A stretch of DNA of 64,000 bases from Bryum argenteum (lineage: Eukaryota; Streptophyta; Bryopsida; Bryales; Bryaceae), in assembly GCA_037043015.1 (NCBI GenBank), contig CM073327.1, forward strand, positions 7,670,727 through 7,734,726, in the 5' to 3' direction. Below, piece after piece: positions 33,123 to 53,867 of this stretch. Position 1 is the first letter of the stretch. Each line of letters starts with the position of its first letter. Under the pieces are notes generated by a model. It made no database searches. It had not been told where the DNA came from and was given only the letters and a program-made list of their open reading frames with translations. Made by a program: the position numbers and the translations under genes.

Positions 33123-34451
33123 TTCAGTTTTATATCTGGCATGTATGGAGAGAAAGGACTTGATCATGTCCTTCGATGACAATGTACTTGCTGAGATTCT
33201 TCGAATGTCTATTCATTTTGAGTTCTGCATTGTGAAGAGTCTTTGAATTTCGGATTCTGCTATGCCCCGAGGTTTCTGCTTGAACGTAACTTGCTCAATA
33301 ATTGTGCAAATTTCAATAGATTTGTATCCATGGACAAAGTAAGTTGAACACGGGCCTACTGGAATCATCATTTTTGAACCCTTTTGGAACTTGTGATGAG
33401 TTTTTGGAGTTAAACTAATAAGGTTCCTGAAATGGTGCAGTCTAAAATGTTTATTTTAATTACATCAACAAGAAGCAATTTAGTGGGCAATTTCTGATAC
33501 TCCACTAGGCTCCCGTAGTAGCAACATAGCGCCGAATTATGGAACACTTGCTGGATGGAAGAGGGGTCGTGTGCAGAAAGGTTGAAGAATATGCTATTTG
33601 TTACTTTTTTTTGGTCAAAAGTTTGTAGTGATGTTTTGGAATGTAGCAATCTGGAGCCTCTCTTTTCACTTTCTTGCATGACGTAGAAGTGTTTGGGTTC
33701 TGAAATGAACACCTGTGGAAGTTTGATTGTTAGGAAGTTGGTTTTTTTTCATGGTAGGAGTACCGCCACTTAAATGGATTTCAACACATTTCAATACTTA
33801 CTTCTAAGTGCCTATACTTTGCTTTTCTGCAAATTTGTTGCTTTGGTTGACTGTTCTGATCCTCCAATAGTGGTCGCATGTTTCAGTTTTGTCACTTGAG
33901 AGTCGTGAGCATCTATTGATAATATAATTTTTGGATATTCTTAGAGCACTTTCACTTTGTTGGGTCTAAGAGCTCTGTAGAGGGAGGGTCACAAGTCACT
34001 TATGCACTGTGATAGTTCTTTTTCACCAACAATCCTGTAACGAACATTCCCTCTTTTCATTGATTATAGATTTTTTAGGTTTCTGTGAGCAGGAGGTTTG
34101 GAGATGGTCATGTCTTGTTGTTTTTGGATGGTTTGAGATGATTATCTCTTGAGGTATTGCTGGGCGGTAGGAGCCGTGATGACGTAATAAGACTAGTGCC
34201 AAATTCTATTTTCTCATGTGCAATTATGATTTTAACCCCTAAAGCCCCCAAAACTGAAAGAACTCAAAACCACCCTCTTTCAATGCAAGATGAAAATTTT
34301 CAACTTTGACGTAATATCAAGTATATAACCGTAAGATCTGATACCTAACTTGCTCATAAATGTGTGTACCAAAACATAGTTCCAAATTCCTTACCAATTG
34401 TGAGATCGCAAAATCCAAAGTTGATAAATAAATTTTTTTTGCTTGTTGCAG
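33123..34451. other. Intergenic, no gene seen
   Basis: No coding feature recognised. TTAACCCCTAAAGCCCCC at 34232 resembles one end of a TTAA element; no partner end was found. Confidence 0.4.
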
Positions 34452-34535
34452 AATGTGGTGCGAGGACTGTCGGTGTTGGGGACCGCAATCCTGGCTGTGA
34501 GTGTGCCTGGGTTCGGGATCTTCATCTCCCTGGTG
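34452..34535 (+). pseudogene. Orphan exon resembling an amino-acid transporter (AVT-like)
   Basis: An 84-bp frame with acceptor (TTGCTTGTTGCAG) and donor (GTAAGC) encodes 28 residues, ending VPGFGIFISLV. The hydrophobic pattern with VPxFGxFxSLV recalls a late membrane segment of vacuolar amino-acid transporters of the AVT/AAAP group. I found no other exon upstream or downstream; a truncated MITE sits 140 bp further on. A captured or leftover exon is most likely, but the match rests on one short motif. Confidence 0.3.
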
Positions 34536-34675
34536 GTAAGCCGAACGCAGCGAACACCACACCACAAAGTACAAGCACAACGTCGACGACGAGCGAGAAT
34601 CTGGAGGCAGTGGCGCCACAGAGCTGCATGTGAAACTCATCGCCGGAAGCACAAAAGCCATCAAGAATTATAGTA

Positions 34676-34981
34676 GTAGGTCATATTCAAAAATTATATT
34701 AAAATAAAAATGGTTGATATTCCATTTGCTTGATTCAATGGATTTTAGATTATTGGGACATGACTTACTTTTTCAACTAAAAAATCAAATAAAATTACTT
34801 CAAAATATTTTTTTTAATTCTTAATTTTTTTCTTGATACATTATAAGTATAGACAACTAAAACCACATCTAATGAAGTCTTATTGTATTACAGTTTAAAA
34901 ATAGATATATTTGACACACCAGCATAGAGCGCAATTGTTCATGGGACAACCTTTTTGGGTACCCCAACCAGACTATCACCC
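34676..34981. mobile_element. GGG..CCC-ended MITE, copy 2, 5'-truncated
   Basis: 306 bp equal to the right half of the elements at 2118-2740 and 52910-53531, ending at the same ACTATCACCC. It is closer to the 52910 copy (shared TGATTCAATGG and TTAATTCTTAA variants). The left half is missing, with a sharp break at GTAGGTCATATTC. Confidence 0.85.
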
Positions 34982-35423
34982 AAGGATAGATTCCGATTAT
35001 GCCGATTTTCATTCTAATGGAGCTCATCATGATTTGCAGTATTAGTTCTAGTATTCTTCTTCAATCTTAGCCTGAAGAAACAAACAGGATGTGTGATATT
35101 ATAGATCAATATTTTGTACATAGAATTGAAGCTTCACAAGAGAAGCTTCTGTTTTGTATTACGACAATTTTGTATTTTCTATTTTATATGAAGGATCCTC
35201 TCTAAAGTGGGCCAACAGAAAGTGCTGCTTTTTTATATTAAAAATGAAGTTTTACGACATGGATAAGCCATTTGTAATGATGAAGATCCTTCACTTTAAA
35301 GTGGGGGTACGCAGCTGACAGGAGAAGTGCTGTTTTTTCTTGTTTTTAATTCTGTCATCAATTCCTGTTAATTGGTAATTCAAAAGCAGATGCTGCTAAC
35401 TTAGTGATAAGATGAGGCTTTAG

Positions 35424-35830
35424 CTAAGGTAGGATGACCTTAAACCGCGCAAATAAGAGATTCAGCATGGTTGTGAACCTTGTGTGCATTGTTTGTAATT
35501 TTTCTTGGATGGGAAAACATGAGGGAGAGTGAATGCAAAAATTTCAAAAATAAAATAGCAAAAATTGAATTTACTACAAATTTTTGAAGTCAAAAGTGTA
35601 TATGACCTTAAAATGATCAGTATCCTCTCCTTTTTATCCGGCAGACCAGTACTTTGTGGCGCTCACGCATGTAGCTAAAACCGTGCAAAAAGGTCCACGC
35701 CATGGGCGGCTATGTACCCTCAGATTTCACAACTGCTGTGCGTGCAATAAGGTCCATGCCATGGGCGGCTACAGGGGCGGTCTGCCCTGCACTTCTGGGG
35801 GCCGCACGATTTAAGGTCATTCTACCTTAG
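35424..35830. mobile_element. Long-TIR element, unclassified
   Basis: 407 bp bounded by CTAAGGTAGGATGACCTTAA and, reverse complemented, CTAAGGTAGAATGACCTTAA, a 27-bp inverted repeat with few mismatches. TA lies at both outer edges, but the symmetry makes a TA duplication ambiguous. Inside, a 60-70 bp stretch with GGTCCAYGCCATGGGCGGCTA is duplicated (about 35690 and 35751). Confidence 0.6.
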
Positions 35831-36415
35831 TCGTGTATTCATTTTTCAATGGTAAACCTACTATTGTCCTTTCTTTAAAAACTGAGTTCCATTCTTATGA
35901 GCACTCGTAATTGTAACTAAGCTGATCCGCCTTGGCTGAGAATGATTGCTGGCCCGAAGAAACTGAAAGTGTCATATCCCAGATTTGTACATGAAATTGA
36001 CGCAAATGGTGAGCTTAAAAGCAGATAATCTGTCATTGTTAATTCAAGAGAGATGATGCTAGGGTTCTGTGAATTTATTTGAAGTAATCGATTCTGGATC
36101 TCTTTTAAATGTCGATTGACGTTGAGTTGTCCTTTAAAGATGAGATTGTTATGTTTGATAAAAATGTGAAATTCATTTTGAACCACTCTATTGCATTCAT
36201 GTTGGGGATTCAACCCCGGAATGCTTAAACACTTTGGTTTACTTATAAAAAGATATTAACAAACCTACTTTCACAAAGTTAACTAGATTGATAAATGTAT
36301 TAAATATTTTTTGTCATTTAATTAAATACATATTATCAATATTTAATTCTTTGATATATATGTTTGATTTCATAATATTGATTTCTCTTTTAGAAAAAAA
36401 ATGATACAATTCTCA

Positions 36416-36997
36416 CTATTGATTATTAACTAGAGCTCTACATAATAGACATCTCATTGTTTTGTACATCCATTTTTGCATGCATCTAGGATGGAATTCA
36501 TGTTTACATTCTAACATCAACACGCTACCTCTTATTTCAAAATCACATAGACATATGGAACATGTTTCAATTTTGAAATCAACCCTTCTCCGTATGTATA
36601 TTGTTGGAATCTCTCGATAGAACGATGTAATAGAGATCTTTTAGACGTTCTCATATTTCTTCTTGGAAGTGATTCTTGCTCAAATAGGATTGCGCAAAGG
36701 GTGTCGACGCCTCAAATTGTTGCTTTAATTGTTGATCAACTAACGCCAAAGCATCCGTAAAATTCTCTTTGTTAAAAAAACATGGTTGGCATTTTCATCA
36801 CTATATGTGAGTAGAGGATCGATTAAAAATTTCCCCCACGGTCTCATCGTTTCCTTCAGCAAAATCACAAGCTAAATTTTCAGTGTCAATGTTAAATTGG
36901 TTGGTGTTACAAGTATCTTCGGTTCCGCTACCAGTGGATTATAGAAAACACCCACTCTAATTTTCTCAGGATGCTTTCCGAACATAGTTGGATCCAT
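36416..36997 (-). pseudogene. RING-H2 finger protein relic
   Basis: The C-terminal frame (36640-36416, minus) encodes an uninterrupted RING-H2: CSIC, then 14 residues, CKHEFHPRC, MQKW, CLLC, and a stop after ALVNNQ. This is the C-x2-C..C-x-H-x2-H-x2-C..C-x2-C zinc ligand set of E3 ubiquitin ligases. Upstream on the same strand are further protein-like stretches in other frames: MDPTMFGKHPEKIRV from an ATG at 36997, an acidic segment with EDTCNTNQF, and DALALVDQQLKQQFEAST. They are separated by stops and frame changes at about three places, and no introns explain them. I therefore read this as a decayed small RING gene. A functional short gene starting near 36640 lacks a good ATG. Confidence 0.6.
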
Positions 36998-38150
36998 TTT
37001 GCCAAATGGATTATGCCACAATGTTCAAAAATCTTTATGTTTAAAAAAGTTCCTACTTAGAAAAAGATTTACATGAAAAAAGGATGAAACATATGAACAA
37101 AGAAAGAATTATGCTCTCCATATATATATAGCTCCATTTATATAGCAAATAATCATCTTTTACATGAAAGTAAAAGAGAGCGTTTCTTTCACTTTTATAT
37201 TAAAACACAAAGCGACGACGGATTAGTAGAGCTCCAAGCTCTAATTTAGACCACTTTACTTAAAATGGTATTTAAAATGAGTGAAAAACAGTCTGTATTA
37301 TATCATTAAAGAAGACATTCTCGTATGTATTTAAAGATATCGGCGTTGTGGGGATGACGGGATAGCATGAGGTGAGCTCTCGTTGGAAGGGAATATGTTC
37401 ACAGGGTGCGGATGTTTGCACTTTGTGTTTTGTCTTCACTTTCCCTATGTAGGTGACAAACTCACCGATGACTAAAACCATGTTTGAATTGAGACTCGAT
37501 CAGGTAGTGCAGCCCCATTTGTGCTTGAAAATCCAGATTACCAGCAACATGAACTGGCTGAAACTCGCAAGCAGAATCTGGCTGTCGTTCGAAGCACCAC
37601 ATATTCTTACCTCGAATAAATCCAGATCTATATTCAGAAGGTAAACAGCCCTCCTGCTTATTTCGATTTCATTTACATTCTTATTGATGTTCTTACTGTT
37701 CTCTTCTTAAAGTGAAAGTGAGTGAGTCCATCTTGGTTTGTTTGGGCGTAGAGCCTCCTGCACTACATGCAAAACAGGACGTAAATGGAAGGGACTCTCA
37801 GTCACCCACATTTTATTTCAACATTGTCGCAATTCAGTATCCTGGATTCGATAGTTCCAGACGAAATATGAAAACTTAGAAGAAAAATCATCAGGAACCC
37901 TTGATGTACAACGGCTTGATCCCTCGAAGTCAAAATCTAACCAGATCAAACACATATTGCACATGAACGAAAACAATGACAAACTGGGCCTGTCCAAAAA
38001 ACTTTACATCCTTCCACATTACTCAATTGTGTAGTTCAAATGGTACTATGAGAAAGTTAAGTAGTCCATTCAGAGGATTTATTCAAGACAAAGTGAAACT
38101 TCAGAATGTTTCAAGTGACGGACTGTGATAATGGTGTGAGGGCTTCCAAC
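36998..38150. other. Upstream of RING relic and 3' flank of MSL relic
   Basis: No confident gene. Open frames at 37272-37481 (minus) and 37453-37644 (plus) overlap and show no domain. I looked here for the C-terminal exon of the MSL relic and did not find it. Confidence 0.4.
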
Positions 38151-39759
38151 CTGGAAATTCATGTGATGCTGCATCCACAGAGCCATCTTCATGCGGTTGC
38201 TGTCCTCAATATCCTTGCACACCAAGCGAAAAGTCGGGTACCAATATTGTTGCAAGCTCTCAATGTACTTGGTCATCTTCTCTTTCAATCTTCTCACACG
38301 GATTAGTCGAATGGATTTGAAACTCAATGGCGTCCCATTGATCAGGACTTCTATACAGATTCGACATTGGTTTTGACACCAGAACAGAGTTCGGGTAGTA
38401 CACTTTTTCATTTGAGCCACTGCATCAGATACGTATACGTCGTCAGAAGATATGAAAACGATTTGCAAAGATACATTTGATAATCGTAAACTGAAAGTCA
38501 GATGCTAAGCTTGTGTAGTACCTCAAGAAGATAGTGTGAGTATGTTCATTTTCTGCAGACAAAATACCAGTGAGTGAAGTACATGCCGATGGCTATCAAG
38601 TTGAATGAATTGAAGAAGCAGGCTGGAAGCTGTTGATTAGGTAGGAACTCGCACCTCAACAACCAAGGAGATGTTGTCTACATTAATCCGGTCACCCACA
38701 TCAAAGGGGTGCACATTAATCCGGTCACCCACATCAAAGGGGTGCATGATGAAGAGGAAGATAAGTGACTCGAACGTACTCCTTGCAGCGTTGCCAAAGA
38801 CAAACACCGAGGGAAGCAATATAGAGGAGAAGGCAACCAAAAGCTTCTGAGTGTTCACTCCCATGCATATGGTCAACAGAATGGCCAACATAAGCTGCAA
38901 CAAACCAAAGCAGGAAGTAAGTTTCCGTTGGAAAGTTCAGTGCAGGAGCCTACATTGCAAGATATGAATGCACACACTACAGTTTTAAGTGTTTGAAGTA
39001 CCAGACTTCTTAGGAAGGCGATGAATTCTCAAAAAATTGAAAATGTTGTATCAATTAGCGCACATCACACTTGATTCCCTAGTTAGTGTAGCGCCACCTT
39101 CAATGCTTCTGAGAGTACATGATAACAGGGTTAAGGAACGTACTACATCCATCACGCGATGTAGCTTAGCAACCACAGCAGTGATTTTTTTTTGGTTTTA
39201 AGCCAAACACTTATATGGCTACTTCATTGACTTTTCGATGTTCGATATGGCTATTTACATTATTATTTTTTGTTTTTTTATTTTTCTCCTTCTTTTTTTC
39301 TTGGCTTTTTTTTTGTGAACAACAATATTATTAGGAAATAAGTGGCGATACATGTTTATGTTGTCATTCAAGATCTGGCAACTAGTAAACAAAGATGTAT
39401 ACAAAATTGGCTACAAACGTCTAAACGCAAAAATTGATTTGGCATGTTGTAAATTAAATTTCTACATATCTGGCATCATACTAGCAACACTCTTTCAAGC
39501 ACTGTATGTAATATGGCACTATGTTCATGCATACAAGGAACACAACCAAAAAACTTCAACACCCCAGTGGCCTAATGCAAATGGAAGAAAAGATGGAAAA
39601 ATAAAACTTTGAAATGACAAACATGATCACCAGAAATGACTTGAATATGATTTACATGAACTGTTTTGTAAAAACTACAAGTCACTCTTCAAGGCCTAAG
39701 CAAGATTGCATCATGCGCGGCTGCAATCAAAGATTGAGATATGGAATGGCCTTACTAAA

Positions 39760-42700
39760 CTAAGCATTAGTGCCATACCGATGTGCCTCAGCCGAATGGA
39801 CCCACTGTTTGAAGCAAGCATCGTAAGGGAAATTCTCCAACGTGTATACTTGTTGGATTTTCATGCTCACTACAAGGGACAAATGGTCACCATCAAGCCT
39901 GTTTCGGACTTTATCCTTGAGAAAAGTGAGAGAAGAGAAACATCTTTCATCCTCCACTGATCCAAGGACATGAACCATTGCAAGTTGTGCTAACTTGACA
40001 TACTCATCCATGGTCTTCGACAAAACTGGATTTGCATCTAGCAACCTCCAAAGCTTGGTTAGTGGGTTTACCAACTCATGAGCTTTGCTAGTACCTGGGG
40101 TGGCTAACTCCATTGCATGATCGCAATTGTGGATCATAGCACACTTGAAAATGATCTGTTGTTCTTCCAACTTGGAGCGATCAAGGAGCGGGGAAATCAA
40201 TCTCCGATCGCCATCAACTTCCTTGCCAATCCACTTCGGCATGCAATAGAAGTCTTCTAGAATAGTCAAGTGCTTCCTGAAATGAACCTCAACGTTCTCT
40301 TGCTGCCAATATTGTGGGTACAATACTCCAAGTGCGTCCATCAAGTTGTGGGAGGGGAAGCGGGATTTGACTTCATCAAGCATCTGAGTAGCCGCTTCTG
40401 CATAACAAGGAACCTAATATTAGTGATATGAATATATAAGTATTTTAAACAATGTTAGTTTGAAACTTTTCAAAGCCTCATAGATGTATCACCTATAAGG
40501 CATAAGCATTGTAAATGATCACATCTAAGTTTTTAAGTGATCACCTCTAACTCTCTGAGGGCGCTTCATATCCTCAAACCTAAGATTTTAAGTAATCGCA
40601 TTTAAACTATGAAGGGTGCTTCACACTATGGCCAAAGGTTTTATGGAATTCCATTAATCACATTACAAACCAACTACTTTCTTGCAATCTTTATTAGAAT
40701 GTGATTGATGGAATTTTGCATACTCTTGACTTTTGACAATAGTATGGAGAGGCTTAAAGGTCCTTAATTGTTATGTTAGTCTCAAATTCAATTCAAGTGA
40801 AAGCATTTTTTCAACAAATATGAAGTTCCTATTTCCTAGCCCAAAACTATATATGCGATGTAAATAAACAAAATAAAAAACATCAAGTATGGAGAAAGAC
40901 GCACCAAAACTATACATGTGATAAGAATAAACAAAATCAAAAACATCAAGTATGAAGGGAGAAAGACGCACCAAAACTATATTTGTGATGTAAATAATCA
41001 AAATCAAAAACATAAGTATGAAGGAAGAAAGACGCACCAAAACTATACATGTGATGTAAATAATCAAAATCAAAAACATCAAGTATGGAGGAAGAAAGAC
41101 GCACCAAAACTATACATGTGATGTAAATAATCAAAATCAAAAACATCAAGTAAGAAGGAAGAAAGACGCACCGCTCACATCAAGTTTAATGCGCTCTAGT
41201 AATGCTGTGAAATCTGGCCGTGTAAGTTTTTCATCCTCATGACGAGCAGGCAAGCTCTTATCGCCCACTAGGAATACCAGAGTTGGTGCAAGCTCATTCA
41301 TATCAATTTCAAAATTCATCTTGATACTCTCGTGGTTAAACAATCGAAGTTGATTGAACACAAGGAAAGATGGTCCAAAGAATGATGTATCGGGATTCAC
41401 AAACAACTTGTACAACTTCACCTGGCACTCCATCACAGCTGCCGTGAAGTCTTGGATAAAAATATCTCGTTTTTGAGCTGCGTTTACCAAGACATTCATA
41501 GTCTCCAAGAGTGGTAGCAAGGCAGCCATACCAATAAGTAGGTAAGGGTCCAGCAACTGGACTAGCAAAGCCTACACCAATATACAACAAAACGAAAGCA
41601 TATCAATAATGAAAGAAAAAAATTAGATAAAAAATGAAACAATATAAACATGAAAGGCATACCAATCAAATGTAAAAAGAAAAATAAATAAACATAAATT
41701 TAGAACTTACTCTTGCTCGAGGACCCCATTTCTTGCAATGTTTGTCTGCATCCATCTTTGCTATTAAGCTTTTATACTCTGCTATCACACGGTGAAGGGG
41801 AGCAATCATGCTGCACCATCGCGTCTTCACATTCTTGAGCAACTTCAAGCCCTTTGTGTCCATTGAAATGGCAAGAGCATGAAATTCAGCAAACTTCTTT
41901 GGACTTTGGGCAAAATAGTTGTGACAATTCCTGAGTAACTCCTCAATCAAGTGTATGATCATGAGCTCACTCAATGTTTGGATAGCCAGATTGAGTTTAT
42001 GCCCATAGCAATGCACTCCGATCATAAATGGCGCCCAAGAGTCGACCAGTTTTGTTGTTACTCCGTTCTTGCGTCCATGGAATGCGCTGACGCCATCGGC
42101 CCCAAAACATACAAGCTTTGATGCAATTGCATTAGCATCTAAGCCCATTTTGTTCTGCAAAGCTATCAAAATCACTCCTAGAAGCGCTTCAGCTGTAGCT
42201 CCACTTGTGTCAAGTTTCTGTAAATGCACAAGCAGGGGAACTCTAGCCCAATTCTGCATGACGTACATGTGAATGGCCATCCACGATGTGTTATCTACGG
42301 CTGAAGTCTCATCACATGTTAGAGCCACAAAACTTGCAGCACCTATGATTTCCCTCATTCTAGTTTTCACAAAGTCATACATATGACTGGCCATCAACCA
42401 GCCGGATCCATCGCTCCAATGCATTGTAGGCAAGGTAGGAACTTCTAAAAGCTTGTATAAGGCAAATCTCGGCTCAAATTCAACCATAGGACGTCCATGA
42501 CACAACAACTGAAACAAAGTTGCAAGTTGTACACGCTTCCTCTTACTCTCAACAGTAGTGATATTGTTGAGCTGTTGGAGAATGGTAGTAGGGCGTTTGG
42601 CTGCGAATAGAAGCATGTTCTTCTTGTGTTTATCAGACATATCATGTTTCTTCAAGCCATGCCACTTTGGCTTTAGAAGACAATCTTTACCTCCGGTTTA

Positions 42701-43521
42701 CGCAAGGAATGCACTTTACTTGGTGCATGATCCCATCATCAGCCACCTTGCCCATTGCCCATGGCAACTTAGCTGACCATTCAGTTTGAAACTTCCTAGT
42801 TGCCTCGTAGCTTCTCTTGAAAGACCAAGGCTTCTTTCCGGCTTGTTTATCTATCCTTTCTTGAGAGCCCAACACTGGTTCAAGTTCCTCTATATCATCA
42901 TCGCTCAGACTACCATACTCAAAATCATCCCACGGTCCTTCGTTTGAAAACTCCACAAAGTTTGGATCATCCTCACTGTATACATAGCGGGAAGAATCGC
43001 TAGATACATTCACAACTCTGGGAGTCGACAACACAACAAAAGTATCACTTCCTTCAAATATCGAATGAGCTATTTCCTTGATTGGAAGTACTTGATGGAA
43101 AAGTCACAACCCCGGGTGTTGAAGCCAAAACTTCCACGGTATTACTCTCTATCCCTCCAAATCTCACCTCAGGCAAAGGTGTATCTATAGATACAGTGCT
43201 GCTGAGGTTTATTGCATCCAAGGTAGCCAACTCCTCAGCTGCAACAGCGTCAACAATGGCTCTATTGGCACCCTCCCGAAGAGGCGTTGTGTTTGCTTGA
43301 TTTCTAGGTGTTTTGTAGAAGGATCGAATGTCATTCTTCTCTCTAGCCCGTTTCTTCCCATGTTGCTCGCCTACACGTGCATCTTGGAGGACTTTTCTTG
43401 CTGCCGCTACAGCCATCACCTCCAACCTTGCCTTCTTCTTGCGTGCTCTTTCTTTCTTTGTAATCGCCTCACTGGCTGCTCGTTCTTCCTTTTCTAAGCG
43501 CGCAGGATCATTCTCCTCCAT
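39760..43521 (-). CDS. hAT transposase, spliced, with two frame changes
   Basis: Minus-strand pieces: 43521-about 43060, about 43060-42690, about 42685-41711, then exons 41561-41172 and 40397-39760. Splice junctions at 41711/41561 (RAR|VQLLDPYLL) and 41172/40397 (DVSG|EAATQML) keep the frame; near 43060 and 42690 the frame shifts without introns. Order: basic N-terminus, acidic segment, CxxC..H..H zinc finger (KCIPC..KPKWHGLKKHDMSDKH), DDE region with LTCDETSAVDNTSWMAIHMY and VCFGADGVSAFHG, helical insertion domain, and the C-terminal dimerisation block with VEDERCFSSLTFLKDKVRN. It is related to the ZNF862/DUF4371-type hAT proteins. It catalyses cut-and-paste transposition in the nucleus. Full length would be near 850 residues. 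Confidence 0.85.
40843..41172. repeat. 66-bp minisatellite in the transposase intron
   Basis: Five units of about 66 bp (ACCAAAACTATACATGTGAT..GAAGAAAGACGC) fill the 5' part of the last transposase intron. The first copy runs into the donor itself, so every unit carries a copy of the 5' splice site word (GTGCGTC on the minus strand). Overlapping short open frames are side effects. Confidence 0.88.
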
Positions 43522-44749
43522 TGCACCCTGAACACCATATTTGTGAAGTTGTCAACCTCTGCTTGAGACTTCTAAAACAATTAAGGACTTGTAGGGGCCA
43601 CATGCGCCATCAGACTGTTCATGTCACAAGGTATTGCAAAATGAATGCAATTGAGTTTTGAGCACTACGAGCCATTGTCGCTTCAATATCAAAATGGCAA
43701 TAGAAGCAACAAATACATAAATTTTTTGGAAGAAGATTAGACATTCTCTCTGTTCCACTGGTGTACACCATTGAAGCAAGGCTTACACAAAAGCAAGTGA
43801 TTGAGAATAAACTAAAGCACATTGTGCAAATAATCACTCTAAGCAAATTAAGAAAAGATGTGAGCAAGCAGTAGGCCAAAAGCAATACGAACCTTGACTC
43901 CTTGAGCGTGAACAAGCTGGAAGACCAAGAGTAAACCAGAAATGAATCTTGTGTAGACGATGGTGATCACTTTGCCACTTTGCCTCCCATTCCACTTGGT
44001 GTCTTAGTTGCAATGTTACATTGAAAAATTGAAGGATAGCTTCTAGCCCTCAACCAAAGCCATAATTGTGGCGATAACGGGAGTACAAGAGAAAGTAAAT
44101 TGGCTTCAATGCAATGGAATGAGGAGTCCATCTGGCTATGAAGCATTAAAGTCATAATCAAATTCGGCGACATGGCCGTAAAGGAGGCATGCAATTTGGC
44201 TACTCTTAAATGTAAACACCTTGAGTATGTTATGATTAGGCGATCTCAACAATATCAAAGGCATCAAAGTTCAAAATGGGTTTGGCGATGTCAAAGATCA
44301 CGTTCTCTTTACTTGGAGCCCACTTGGCATACTGACCTTGGACTTAGTTTCTTTTTGGCATTTTCGATTAAAAAAGCACTGATTTTTTTCAAAGGACAAT
44401 CGCCAGACATTTTTTTTTGTAGCAATCTGGCTATTAATCGCCAAAAAAAAAAACACTGAACCACAGTGCGGTTGTCACTGAGGTCAAGGACAAGGCCTTC
44501 CGTTCCTTGTAGACACTGACCACCCATTGCATGAGGGCTTTTTTGGAGATATGACCTTGATCAGACACTTCAAACAAGCCATATGCCTTCGCGGCCTTGT
44601 CTTCAGGCAGAAACTCAGTGAAGTTCTCTAGAGTCAAGTACTTTGCGCCTGGAGGAGCCATATTGTGAAAAATCGATTCGAAGTTTTTGTGAGCGCCGAA
44701 GACCAATTTCAAGAGTAGTTTTGAACTGCGGCTCTTCACATTCTTGTTC

Positions 44750-47700
44750 CTAAGTGAGTAAAGAACACCCCTATGGGCAGTTTTGGGTAGTTTTGGGCAG
44801 ATTTCAAATAGTGTTTTCTAACTTTGACTGAAAATACCTCCTAAAGTATGAGGAATTTTGAAGTATGAAATGACTTTTCGGAAAAGTATGAAAAAACTCT
44901 TCAACCTGCAAAAGGTTTCAATTCCATAGGAGCTAAACATAGTAAATAAGGGGCTCACCCGCTCCCTTAGCTAGTGAGGGCCTTCTTATACAAAGAATGA
45001 CAATCTTAGTATTGGTGTAATCTTGTGCCTTTTTTCCAAGTATGGATACAACTTAGATGAAATACAAAAGAGAGGAGCGACATGAAAGAATCTTAGGGAC
45101 ATATTTTTTGATTTTTTTTTTACTAAGATAAAATGCCATATAGTTACTTAAGGTCCATTTGAAGCTTTTCTATGAAGATTTCTTCTTTGAAGTAGCAACA
45201 CCAATATGTATTGGTCTCTAAGATCCACAATTATATGTTACTATCCATGTGAAGATAAAGAGAGGGAGGGAGAGGGAGAGACACTTAGTCAAATGCTTTG
45301 ATAATGGAGAAATTACACCCTTGTGTTTGGTATCTTATGACAAATAGCTTCCTTTTCATTGTAAAAAGTTCAATTTAGAAGGACAGAAAGAGTGAAGATA
45401 TAATGTAGAGCTCTAAGGATTCTGAAATATTCGACAATGCAAATACATGTATACCATTTGGTCATTGTCTCTTAGTAAGTAGTGTTCCACTTTATATGAA
45501 ATTTATATGACAAATGTGCTCTCATACTTGCATAAATATCACCCATTTACTCTTAGTGTCATGGATATTAATAAAATTGAGTAGTGTAGTTGCCTCTCCC
45601 CCCTTGTAAAGAGGTCCTAATCTAACTATGAACCCTATTTATTACAAAGTAAATAAAACCTATAGAAATTGTGGTAGCATTCACTTAATTTTTTTTACAA
45701 AGAACTAAATTTGAGCAAGTACTACAACTTTGTACAATGTAACATACACAACTTTTTTTGAAAAAACGTTTCATTTAGCGTAAGGGAACTTGCTAAAGGG
45801 CTGACTAAATGAAGCTAGGGAGGAGGGGCTGCTAGATATAACACCATCTAACACTTGTTTTAATTCAAACCCTTTCCCAACGAAGTGGCAAAATGACCTT
45901 ATAATATTTTATCCTCTAGCACGTCATTACACAAATTAAAAAGTTCTTAGAAGTCCAAAAGCCCAAGAAGTTTTGAGGTCTTCCAATAGGCGCCATGAAA
46001 TTTTCCAAATTAACTTGAAGTAAACGATGCATTTCAATGGGTGTTGGACGGGTAGCCATGTAGCGGGCCGCTACCTCTTGTCGGTCTCGACCGTTTGTTT
46101 GGTGGATTGCAAAAGGTGGTAGGTTGTATAGTCAATTTCTTAGAAAAGAAACTGATATTTTCTTGTCTCTTTAGCTATCTGTCGTGAATGCCCTTACATA
46201 CCATCCCTTCAAACCTTAGAGCTATTGAAGGTTTGTGGACTTATTGGAAAACCTTGTAATAAGCAAGGTAATCAAAAATTTGTAACTCCCTCATAAATTC
46301 TAAAAATAAAATAAGGTAGTGAGGACCTCGAGAAGAAGGTGGATGAAGTAGTCAATTCCTTTACTTCTCTTAGGATGTTCGTATGATAAGGGTTGTCAAA
46401 TTTATGAAAATGAGAATATTTGAAAGTAAATGAGGAAATCATCCGTGAACCTTGAACCAATTCTATCTCTACGAAAAGTTTAGAAAGTGGGACTTTTGAG
46501 TTGATATCCATTTCATGACAATGTACAAATGTGATTAGATCATGCCTTCTTGTTTCTCTCCTAGATCTAAAATTAGGTCACTTTATAATTCATGGTGATT
46601 TTGGGAGCCATAATTACTTAGAAATTCAATATCTTGAGATTTGTTGGCCTTATTTGCGGTCCGATTGTTGCCTACACCTTTACAAAATAACCTCCTTCCA
46701 ACGACACCTCATGCGCCAATCCGAATGGCGTTCTCTGAGATCACAATGTCACAAACTCACAAAATATACTATCTCCGATATATAATAGACTATGCGGTCA
46801 TTTGCATATTTTACCGCATACACCTTGCATTATAAGGAGCACCCAATAAAAATTTTAGGCAAAAATATTACTTCTAATCTTTTCATTAAGACAATCCAAA
46901 TAAAAAGTAAATTTTGCATAAAAAGAAGCTTTAGGGGTTGAAAGAGTTATGAAGCTTTGAAAATTAGCTAATCCCTAACTTCTTGAAAGCCAAAATGAAG
47001 GGGACAAATGTTTTAACCTAAAATTTATTCTAGATGTTCTTTATACTTTAAGGTGAGTGAGAATTTGCAAAGTCAAATTCCATATTGGCCCCTAAACGTC
47101 CTTGCGGTCATTTGATACATTTTGGATGAACCGATGAAGGGCAGAAACTTTGTAAAGCCATAACTTCTTCATTTAAGGTTAGTTTTTGACAGAATCACTT
47201 GGGTTGGGTACCAAATTAAATTCATTTTGTGTTGTAGAGATTTTAGATCCATAAGATAATTATGATTAAAGGCATGCATTTTCAGTGACAACAACCTTTG
47301 GTTTTGAGACTTCAAACATTGGCCATAGTTTACCATTGCAAACCGATTATGAGAAATCAAAAATAGTTTCTCATGTTTTTTTTTTTGTACATAGATATGA
47401 TCTTAAGATGAATTTTAAAAAATTTTTAGTCGGATTTTTTTTTTATCCAGATAAGTTTAGTATTGGTTTTGCCATGATGTTTTTACAACGAAAAAGTGAA
47501 AAAATGAATGAAGTTTGGAGAGCAATATCTCCTTTAGCTATTGTGAGATTTCAACATTATTTTTTGGGATGGATTCCAATTAGAGTCTAGTTTTAGTAAA
47601 AGAAATTATGACTTGATTGGAATTGTTTTGAGAATAAGGCGTAGGTTTCAGTCCAAAAGGTATAGTTTTGGACTACTTTTCCTTCGTAATATTTTATCAG

Positions 47701-50393: not shown

Positions 50394-53300
50394 ATGGCGA
50401 AGCATCTTCAGGTGACGCTCTTGAGAGCCACGGGAGTCAATGCCACCACTTATCGGAGTAAGGGACAAACCATTCGATTCGATTCTTCTCTGACTTCTGT
50501 TTACTAGGAAATGAAAGACGTGTTCGTACTTTGTAGGTGCGTGTTTATATTGAAGCTTTGCTTTTGGTTGTACGCAGAATCTCGAACAATGGTACATGCA
50601 ACAGCCTCATTCAAGAATGCAGTCCACACAACTTCGACTGTAGAAGGTACGTCACTTCTTCATCAAATCCAAAAGACGTACATAATTTGTATCAGTCACC
50701 ATTAATTGTTGTCCATAACAATTACGGGTCGCTCCATTTGCCATTCGATGGTGAATTTGGTGCATGAAACGAATGTTGGAACATAAAGTATGTAACTTCT
50801 GATTGACACCCATTGCTCAAATTGCTTTCTGTATTGATGTTGACTATTCCATTGCTAAACAACTCAATATCGTGTGAAGTGATATTGGTTTTGCTTTTCT
50901 ATGCCACATTTCAATCTGATCACTCCCAATCTGCACTACTTTTCTACACTCCTACCTTAACCTAATTTCTATTCAAGAATTCACCATCTTTCTTATATGT
51001 CAACTCAAACTAACAAGGCTGAGGTGAGTGTCGAATGTTCTTTAAATCTTGGAGTAAACATTGTACACAAGGTTAAAATCTGATATGATGGTTGGATTTG
51101 CAGACATGGGGACGGAACCTGAATTTCACGACGACGGGTCGAATGTGTTTCATTTTGAATACGAGAAAGACGATGAATTCGTCACTTTCGAGTTGTTCAA
51201 CCGAAATAACGATTCCATAGGGAAATCAAAGTAAGATCCGAACCTATTGAGGAATTCACTCGATCAGTCATGCAATTGTTCAGCTTGTATCAATGAACTA
51301 ATCTTTGTTTGAAATCCACTCTTGACAGGCTTACTTTCGTCGACCTAGAAATGCTGGAACCAGGAGGAGCTCCACAAGAGAAGACCTTGAAAGTGATGAT
51401 ATCCAGAGAGAGGGAGTTCGGAGAGTTAGTCTTGAGTGCTCAACTCCACCGTCACCAGGTGAATTAAATTCACTTTTTCACACTAATTGCTGAATTAGGT
51501 TGAATCTTGAATGTTCAATATGATTGTTGACAAGTTATAAGAAACAAATCTAGTGCTAAGTGATGCCACCAAGATTAACTTTAATTTCCTGCATTTTGTT
51601 CCGATGTAATAAATCTGAAGTTTTTGGAGAATCTCATATCCATATTTGGCAAACATGGGACAGGTTATGGGAGAGAAAGGGAACTTGAATGTGGAGCTTG
51701 TGGGAGGATCCTCCAACAAACTCACCTCCATATTCACATGTAAGTCACTTCCTGACATTTTGATTTTTCAAATTTAACCCTTTTTCGCTGGGCCTCTTAC
51801 AATGCCTAGGAATGTTCAATGCGGAATGTTCATGCATTGGACATTTGTACATCGTATCAGGGATTTAATGATTTGTGTTTGTATTTGAAATCTACAGCTA
51901 AGATGAAATTTAAATATGTCATTTTTAAATGCAGCAAAGACAACTGCAATGATGGCGAAGCTCACATACAGGCACACCTCACTAAGAAGTGGACTCCGAA
52001 CAGGTGAGTTTTGACAAGTTCCAATGTAATTCGTGAGTAGTTTACCATAGTCATTCTAACATTCTAACTATGTGTTTTACTATACAATCATACTTCAAAC
52101 TTTCTATTGATATCTTGATATGTGTTAGGTACGGGAAACACGTTCAAATGGTATACCGACAACAAGTTCTCATTCTTGATCAACAACGACATCCAACCAG
52201 ATGATGTGCTTGAAGTGGTGGTTTACAACGGAGACAGGGTTGGAGATTGCAAGTAAGACCGTCTCCTTAACTGCAATGAACTGCAATGATCCAAAGCAAG
52301 TCTAAACTACTCACAGATTACATTGGAACTCATCTAAACAAGAGAATTGCAGGAAATGTAACAATACAGTACATGCACATTCCAATTTAATGAATATGAT
52401 GTTGATACAGTTCAAGCTCTGAAGAATCTCAAAAAGTTCAAATTGTGTTTTCAGGATATATATGAAGACGATGCTGGTCAATCCAGGGACTGAGCACAAA
52501 CGTAAAGGCCAAGAACTGCTGAAAAGTACCAAAAAAGTTGGCACAATCGATATAAACACCACTTTTATCCTACCTGTAAGTTCTCCATCAATCTTCGTAT
52601 CCCTGGAAATATCACCGCGACACTCTCTAGTATCATGAATGTTTCAAATAGTTAAACAATTCAACCCTTCACCCCGCAGAGAAGGACGGCCCTGAGAAAT
52701 GTTTAGTCGTTGGATTCTTGAAAAAGTACACTGAAAATGAAAGACGTTGGCATTCTCTTACAGATTAAAGTACCAAGAGAGAAGCCTCGACCGAGAACCC
52801 CGAGCCCTCCGAGACACGAACCAGAGGTTTGTCATTCACTTTTTAGTGAGGGAGTGACTTTCGTACTCTTTTCCTGTAGTAATCAATGAAGATGTGTATA
52901 AGACTTACAGGGCAATGGTAAGCTTGGGGTATCACTTTTTGGACACACTAATTAGGTTATTTTTATTGAAAGCCTCCAAAGTTTGTCTAATTTAGTCATT
53001 TTAATCAAGTAAAAAGACCCTAAAATAGAAAATAAAATATCATGCACCTCACTGAAATCAAAGTATATATGCCTATAGATTTTCTTTTAGATTTTTTATT
53101 TTTTTTGGATCCATTCATAGATGAGGGAAAAAGTGCTGAATTTGGGGATTTGCAGGCATTATAGTGCACAATGAATTAATTTTTTTATTATTAAATAAAT
53201 TATTTTGTATTCTATACAAGAAGATGTAGGTCATATTCAAAAATTATATTAAAATAAAAATGGTTGATATTCCATTTGCTTGATTCAATGGATTTTAGAT

Positions 53301-53867
53301 TATTGGGACATGACTTACTTTTTCAACTAAAAAATCAAATAAAATTACTTCAAAATATTTTTTTTAATTCTTAATTTTTTTCTTGATACATTATAAGTAT
53401 AGACAACTAAAACCACATCTAATGAAGTCTTATTGTATTACAGTTTAAAAATAGATATATTTGACACACCAGCATAGAGCGCAATTGTTCATGGGACAAC
53501 CTTTTTGGGTACCCCAACCAGACTATCACCCTACAGTCAAGTGGTGATTCTTGTTCTGCAGGAGCCTCGAAGATACTCGTGCCCTCCGACGCGATTCGGA
53601 TATTATCCCCCGCCGCACGATCAGATACCACGGGCCGACCATTTGAACGTGTCACAAGTTAACATTCCATATCCTCCGCCGCAGCAGGTCTTCCCTTATA
53701 GTTTTCACCCTGCACCGCCTGCTAATGAGTATGCACCAACGGCACCACCCGCGGATCTCGCGCAACACCACCAGCCAGAGGCCCACGGCGCTCCCCCTCC
53801 TAGCAAACACCGGCCGCAGGCTTACGTTCCTGAGGTCCAAGGCTACAAGCGAAGCTTCCACTTCTAA
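50394..53867 (+). CDS. Protein with two C2-like regions and a Pro-rich tail
   Basis: Ten exons with consistent phases: 50394-50457, 50578-50646, 51104-51230, 51329-51458, 51664-51739, 51935-52003, 52129-52252, 52455-52575, 52764-52826 and 53562-53867. They total 1149 nt, 382 residues. Residues 3-130 (LQVTLLRATGVNATTYRKSR.. EYEKDDEFVTFELFNRNNDSIGKSKLTFVDL) follow the C2 beta-sandwich pattern of plant SRC2/BAP-type proteins. Residues about 140-290 (GNLNVELVGG.. DDVLEVVVYNGDRVGDCKIYM) look like a second C2. The tail is rich in Pro, Tyr and His (YYPPPHDQIP..) and ends KRSFHF. The acidic loop ligands expected of calcium-binding C2 domains are not obvious, so protein or lipid binding without calcium is possible. 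A full MITE copy lies in the last intron, 30 bp before the acceptor. Confidence 0.85.
52910..53531. mobile_element. GGG..CCC-ended MITE, copy 3, in the last intron of the C2 gene
   Basis: 622 bp with ends GGGCAATGGTAAGC and, reverse complemented, GGGTGATAGTCTGG. The 4-bp direct repeat TACA lies at 52906-52909 and 53532-53535. It is nearly identical to 2118-2740 throughout. Its right end is only 30 bp from the acceptor of the last exon, so it supplies much of that intron and perhaps the branch-point area. Confidence 0.88.

Follow-up and report, generated by a model that had tools for sequence, protein, structure and literature searches.

The window studied here, that is the whole stretch of 64,000 nucleotides of Bryum argenteum DNA that was analysed (C7:7670727-7734726), carries a hAT-type DNA transposon inside an exon of a partial copy of an MSL channel gene, and an apparently intact MSL10-like paralogue lies on the same contig, 8.7 Mb distant, at C7:16.38 Mb. 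All genome searches below cover the assembly of 258.8 Mb in 25 contigs. The features at the insertion site are the following, with the basis of each in brackets.

39179..44458, minus strand: hAT-type element of 5,280 bp, with its transposase gene on this strand (ends, five-copy alignment, empty site)
39171..39178, no strand: target site duplication AACCACAG, left copy (window sequence)
44459..44466, no strand: target site duplication AACCACAG, right copy (window sequence)
39179..39193, plus strand: left terminal inverted repeat, 14 of 15 bases paired with the right repeat (window sequence)
44444..44458, minus strand: right terminal inverted repeat (window sequence)
44459..44673, minus strand: MSL exon 9, 5' part as far as the insertion, the duplication being counted here (comparison with the intact gene)
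39144..39178, minus strand: MSL exon 9, 3' part beyond the insertion (comparison with the intact gene)

The element starts with CAGTGATTTTTTTTT and ends with the reverse complement of CAGTGTTTTTTTTTT, with CAGTG and CACTG as its termini, and AACCACAG flanks it on each side. The original prediction, which was made from the letters of the window, had described a hAT-type insertion in an MSL exon with an exact 8-bp duplication, fixed to the base by the two copies and the CAGTG ends, and both points are borne out. On the whole, 512 pairs of CAGTG and CACTG lie 200-20,000 bp apart in the window, and identical outer 8-mers are found in only one of them, which is this element. As 0.011 such matches are expected among the 512 pairs from base composition, a chance duplication of AACCACAG is rejected. 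An empty site, which that prediction had proposed to look for in relatives, is present in the same genome: the stretch C7:16380601-16380809 of the paralogue matches the right MSL flank at 98%, and is the only near-identical place for this flank besides the window itself. There the equivalent of 44674-44459 continues directly into the equivalent of 39178 and below, with a single AACCACAG, which reads as CTGTGGTT on the other strand, and with no footprint. Because the paralogue thus holds the natural pre-insertion site, with one 8-mer, no footprint and an open frame, the insertion of the hAT element into the MSL copy is directly seen. The origin of the empty site by excision is rejected by the single 8-mer and the missing footprint, and a collapsed-repeat artefact by five copies of the element with five different duplications and flanks.

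Both flanks align to exon 9 of the intact gene in the same frame, as adjacent parts of one exon, and across the joined site GTG-GTT-GCT-AAG-CTA-CAT gives VVAKLH, the frame of the intact gene, which agrees with the continuous MSL-like reading claimed before. The read-through holds at the site itself, but the frames on its two sides agree only beyond a 1-bp deletion in a run of C at about 44483/44484. This deletion, 15-17 bases beyond the right-hand duplication, is in accordance with the single-base shifts outside the element that had been noticed in the host.

The paralogue has 13 exons with GT-AG introns and an open frame of 1,023 residues in a splice model that was built from the sequence. 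Its protein matches Arabidopsis MSL10 with an E value of 9e-119 and Flycatcher1 with 1e-110 (PDB 8tdj and 7n5d), aligns to MSL10 residues 339-503 and 643-1013, and passes the PF00924 model with 40 bits against a cut-off of 20.2; it is thus collinear with plant MSL proteins and contains an MscS beta domain. The MSL pieces of the window also match MSL10 and Flycatcher1 in PDB, and reach 18.4 bits for PF00924, which is under the cut-off. A six-frame PF00924 scan of the genome gives two other places, neither the window copy nor the paralogue being among them, while a genome protein search with exon 9 finds both loci and two weaker ones, on C5 (53%) and on C3 (58% over 31 residues). At the DNA level, exon 9 has only two near-identical places found in the genome. 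Downstream of the intact gene (L009 7398-8429) there are open frames like those of mariner/Tc1-type transposases, named by eye, and this stretch has no match in the segment of the window.

The copy in the window extends from exon 9 to the start of exon 13. Besides the two parts of exon 9, its features, all on the minus strand and all by comparison with the intact gene, are these.

44483..44484 (between), minus strand: 1-bp deletion in exon 9, in the run of C
38655..38894, minus strand: MSL exon 10; 9 bp are missing at 38864/38865, and 33 bp are duplicated in tandem (38680-38712, 38713-38745)
38522..38552, minus strand: MSL exon 11; one base is missing (38537/38538)
38151..38419, minus strand: MSL exon 12; 8 bp are missing (38288/38289)
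37752..37757, minus strand: remnant of MSL exon 13, six bases, the remainder gone in a 231-bp deletion

Overall, 13 insertions or deletions separate the copy from the intact gene, eight in introns and five in exons (-1, -9, +33, -1 and -8, three of them frame-breaking). With exons 1-8 absent, these three frame breaks and the loss of exon 13, the copy has no complete open reading frame. Introns 9-12 are kept, and their ends are still GT and AG. The changes E872K, A896V, I900M, T921N and P941Q of the copy all fall at residues where the intact gene equals MSL10. The MSL homology ends at 44674, one base beyond exon 9, and not at 44749 as first proposed; the 75 bases 44675-44749 are repeat, and 44666-44759 belongs to a high-copy repeat.

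This repeat lies on both sides of a longer duplicated segment, as listed here.

34437..44674, minus strand: duplicated segment with partial MSL exons 9-13, intergenic DNA and the end of a convergent transporter-like gene (gapped match to C7:16.38 Mb)
34241..34463, plus strand: left half of the dispersed repeat into which the segment was set (repeat-locus comparison)
44663..44959, plus strand: right half of the same repeat copy (repeat-locus comparison)

The exact ends of the segment are blurred by short homology. The convergent neighbour we take to be an amino-acid transporter gene, its translation being judged by eye. The flanking repeat is frequent, with 465 first-look candidates, of which 40 were scored; among six repeat loci fetched, five match both halves and one (L006) the right half only. 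As judged by eye, both joints lie at the same few repeat bases, and the letters shared with the donor are about 13 imperfect ones on the left and AAAAT on the right. The two halves point the same way and together make up a single copy, and a clear target duplication is absent, also by eye. In the segment itself, an inversion relative to the donor affects some 120 bp (34545-34664) of the duplicated end of the transporter-like gene. In addition, a repeat that has recently spread lies within it: the 306 bp at 34676-34981 occur again without change at 53226-53531, and 2434-2740 matches them at 97%.

A segment set into one point of unrelated sequence, an intact donor, short homology and no clear target duplication, with the joints read by eye, are what a break-repair patch would leave. 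Because the segment was inserted into one repeat copy with short homologies at the joints, it most likely represents a patch made in double-strand break repair, in which we infer the break itself. The frequency of the repeat and its presence on both sides would also suit a Pack-type capture, in which the MSL piece was carried by a transposon whose ends are the flanking repeat; but the halves are same-oriented parts of one joined copy and not inverted ends, no clear target duplication is seen by eye, and the letters shared at the joints are explained by the paralogue too, so that we regard such a capture as quite improbable. A processed retrocopy of MSL would share with the observations only the dispersed position, and is refuted by introns 9-12, retained with their GT/AG ends, and by the inclusion of the end of a neighbouring gene; practically no weight is left to it.

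The original prediction had held that the death of the gene and the insertion could be ordered. They can, and the best inference is that death came first, though the 5' truncation, which leaves exon 9 to the start of exon 13, had been missed. Very probably, a fragment was copied by break repair, was dead on arrival and decayed, and the hAT element inserted much later, so that the element was not the killer. In this scenario a copy of about 6 kb from C7:16.38 Mb, comprising the 3' part of the MSL10-like gene and the last part of the convergent gene next to it, would have entered one copy of the dispersed repeat at C7:7.71 Mb, most likely to patch a double-strand break. The promoter and exons 1-8 would have been left behind, as the joint and the missing exons suggest, and the copy would then have decayed through small insertions, deletions and substitutions. 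The last step, much later, is the cut-and-paste move of a low-copy hAT element into exon 9 with 8 bp duplicated, which the empty site and the five different duplications demonstrate. The search for a second copy of exons 1-8 was negative, which makes it most likely that the fragment was dead when it arrived and was not killed by the element: with upstream DNA and exons 1-8 as query (L009:600-4601), the genome DNA search, which skips very common words, gives 26 matches, namely the gene itself and 25 others, at 69-84% identity, that extend over no more than 153 query bases.

The relative ages of fragment and element are in accordance with this order. Between the host copy and the paralogue, 82 of 2,201 positions differ in exons, introns and near downstream DNA, which is 0.0186 per lineage (95% interval 0.015-0.023), while the window copy of the element has 20 private substitutions in 5,173 gap-free columns, or 0.0039 (0.0024-0.0060). 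Introns and near downstream DNA alone differ at 71 of 1,446 positions (4.9%; 0.0245 per lineage, halved), and adding four far blocks to the whole stretch brings the count to 202 of 3,320 (0.030 per lineage, halved); a 100-bp block at the far end is 5% divergent. From the element branch of 0.0039 and these host divergences per lineage, together with that of about 0.011 on synonymous codons, the insertion therefore falls roughly within the last 13-36% of the life of the fragment. This dating is relative only and gives no years. Transitions make up 18 of the 20 private changes of the window element, a proportion that would be consistent with DNA methylation and with a clock that runs faster.

Several results weigh against the scenario of a fragment dead from birth and should be set beside it. 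The absence of exons 1-8 holds at the sensitivity of the genome DNA search. The clock of synonymous codons, with four changes, gives about 0.011 per lineage and dates the insertion to roughly 0.36 of the fragment age, with a wide error. Three far intergenic blocks, outside the count of 82 in 2,201, are 10.6-12.0% divergent, and the rates are thus uneven. Exons differ from the intact gene at 11 of 755 positions (1.5%) and introns at 41 of 838 (4.9%; Fisher P 1e-4), a contrast that exceeds what a fragment dead from birth should show. In addition, the order of the individual host lesions relative to the insertion is not fixed, and the one-base shifts could be assembly errors.

The contrast between exons and introns comes from introns 9 (20 of 249) and 12 (18 of 390), while introns 10 (2 of 102) and 11 (1 of 96) are as low as the exons, of which exon 9 has 3 differences in 242 positions, exon 10 has 1 in 207, exon 11 has 1 in 31 and exon 12 has 6 in 269. 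It may reflect a source that was a functional sister now lost, a lower mutation rate in exons, or a converted middle stretch. Some past constraint on the copy, which the lower divergence of its exons suggests, together with the intact GT/AG ends of its introns 9-12, would suit the view that the hAT element killed a working second MSL gene, whose 5' half and other exons were lost later. Against this view, the segment ends abut the halves of one repeat copy, so that the segment seemingly arrived already cut at exon 9, a second copy of exons 1-8 is not found in the genome DNA search, and the element branch is 0.13-0.36 of the host branch, according to the clock chosen; we consider the view very unlikely. 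A source in another, once functional copy, now lost, instead of the extant gene at 16.38 Mb, would be compatible with the rest of the preferred reading. It draws support from the intron divergence of 4.9% against 1.5% in exons, and from residue 730, which is Y in the window copy as in MSL10 and H in the extant gene. However, such a copy is not found in the assembly, synonymous changes are also few, which equally fits rate variation, and conversion would explain the low counts of introns 10 and 11 (3 of 198) as well; hence we give it a minor but real chance. The best account is still copying by break repair, followed by decay and a late insertion.

Searches with three parts of the element identify five full-length copies in the genome, namely C7 (the window copy), C4, C3b, C10 and C3a. 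All five have CAGTG and CACTG ends and perfect 8-bp duplications, each different. Pairwise substitutions among them are 0.8-1.7% and near star-like: 142 gap-free columns are variable, 125 of them private to one copy (20 in the window copy, 16 in C4, 16 in C3b, 28 in C10 and 45 in C3a). The window copy has private frameshifts in its transposase, +1 near 43059 and -2 near 42703, which likely arose after its insertion. The transposase gene is laid out as follows.

41666..43521, minus strand: transposase exon 1, modelled, in three broken frames (43054-43521, 42687-43034 and 41666-42655), with a zinc-finger-like part and a D..E core (frames and copy alignment)
41146..41568, minus strand: transposase exon 2, an open frame whose exact ends are approximate (open frame)
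39760..40383, minus strand: last transposase exon, with the hAT-type C-terminal motif ...GSVEDERCFSSLTFLKDKVRNRL (match to the relative L054)
40841..41172, no strand: minisatellite of five 63-67-bp units between the frames of exons 2 and 3, where an intron is presumed (self-comparison, copy alignment)

One 67-bp unit of this minisatellite is missing from copy C3b. In copy C3a (C3:5962500-5976800) there is a nested insert of 7,302 bp, with the 8-bp repeat CAAGAATG on both sides, G-rich inverted ends and an open frame of 1,502 residues. When the element is removed, C3a lies in an open frame of 247 residues, C10 in one of 283, C4 in one of 104 and C3b in one of 63; the C3a host frame includes a Phi_1 (phosphate-induced protein) stretch, and the first 260 residues of the C10 host frame match nothing. 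With five copies, an insertion bias towards genes is possible.

The assignment to hAT draws on both the ends and the transposase. All five copies have an 8-bp target site duplication, which the empty site confirms for the window copy. The short terminal inverted repeats start with CA (CAGTG, 14 of 15 bases), as a table in PMC4423477 gives for hAT elements. For the transposase, a hAT-type core and a C-terminal dimerisation region are recognised only through one intermediate, the relative L054. This relative passes the PF05699 hAT dimerisation model (22.3 bits, cut-off 21.4) and zf-C17orf113, and stays under the cut-off for DUF4371 (28.3 against 32.1 bits); it matches the core of copy C4 with an E value of 5e-14, and its PF05699 stretch is matched by the window C-terminus with 4e-4. 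It tells against the assignment that Pfam gives no family, at E values up to 5, for five transposase pieces from three copies. Pfam also gives nothing for two closer relatives, L042 and L055, the NCBIfam scan of the transposase has one chance-level match only (E 0.077), and in the PDB search the transposase has a best E value of 1.1 and L054 no match. A single-sequence structure model of one frame of the window has a mean predicted local distance difference test score (pLDDT) of 33.8, too low for an RNase H-like fold to be read from it. With a transposase query of 311 residues (L037:2701-3633), 130 places are found in the genome, a total in which the five copies are counted as well as several pieces of one locus; the remaining places mostly match at 24-66% identity, several with long open frames, and Pfam hits are obtained in one of three relatives scanned.

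Three observations lie apart from the insertion. A diverged tandem array occupies 1044-1684 of the window, with self-match offsets at multiples of about 21 bp. The small contigs C12 and C14 carry PF00148 open frames with the size of chlB and chlN, which speaks for a plant that is probably not a flowering one; the chlN-size frame is open on C14 and present a second time on C12, there with three stops. Of four rpoA-type matches, the best lies on C3, a contig of chromosome size, and C12 and C14 have none, as is the case in mosses, so that a moss is likely from the contigs too.

The insertion event is ordinary in kind, and what is unusual is its setting and the completeness of the internal evidence. 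With an empty site, a donor gene and four sister insertions in one assembly, the order of duplication, decay and insertion is readable without outside data, and a transposon within an exon need not be the killer of its gene. Since the transposase has no Pfam model, and since a 2018 survey (PMC6027215) reports finding no hAT element in Physcomitrella, the element may add to the knowledge of DNA transposons in non-flowering plants. Among the papers listed by literature searches on hAT elements or MSL pseudogenes in mosses, none deals with this element or insertion. More speculatively, and with considerable doubt, the genome may have a large hAT lineage missed by the protein-family libraries tried, whose full-length elements were active until recently and often landed within or next to genes; together with the transfer of long gene fragments by break repair, this would make a pairing of gene-disrupting processes that our literature searches did not find recorded for bryophytes.

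Compared with the hAT superfamily and its Ac, Buster and Tip groups, as described in PMC3942097, the element has in common the 8-bp duplication, the CAGTG inverted repeats, a transposase of several exons, the conserved DE, D and HC..H residues and the C-terminal ER.FS...K.K.R..L motif. It differs in its size of 5.3 kb, slightly above 2.5-5 kb, and in having no direct Pfam match, the link being made via L054. The paralogue resembles MSL10 of Arabidopsis and Flycatcher1, whereas the window copy, with exon 9 to the start of exon 13 only, cannot encode a channel. The patching of double-strand breaks with copied DNA is given as a mechanism in PMC3445842, citing Wicker et al. 2010, and in PMC4423477, and the segment here is like the gene fragments and fillers described there in bringing intron-bearing genic DNA to a new place, with the donor unchanged and short homology at the joints. 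The excision fillers given in PMC4423477 are 1-123 bp, while the segment here is far longer, with about 6 kb and two gene ends, and unlike the precedents in these two sources it sits in a non-flowering plant.

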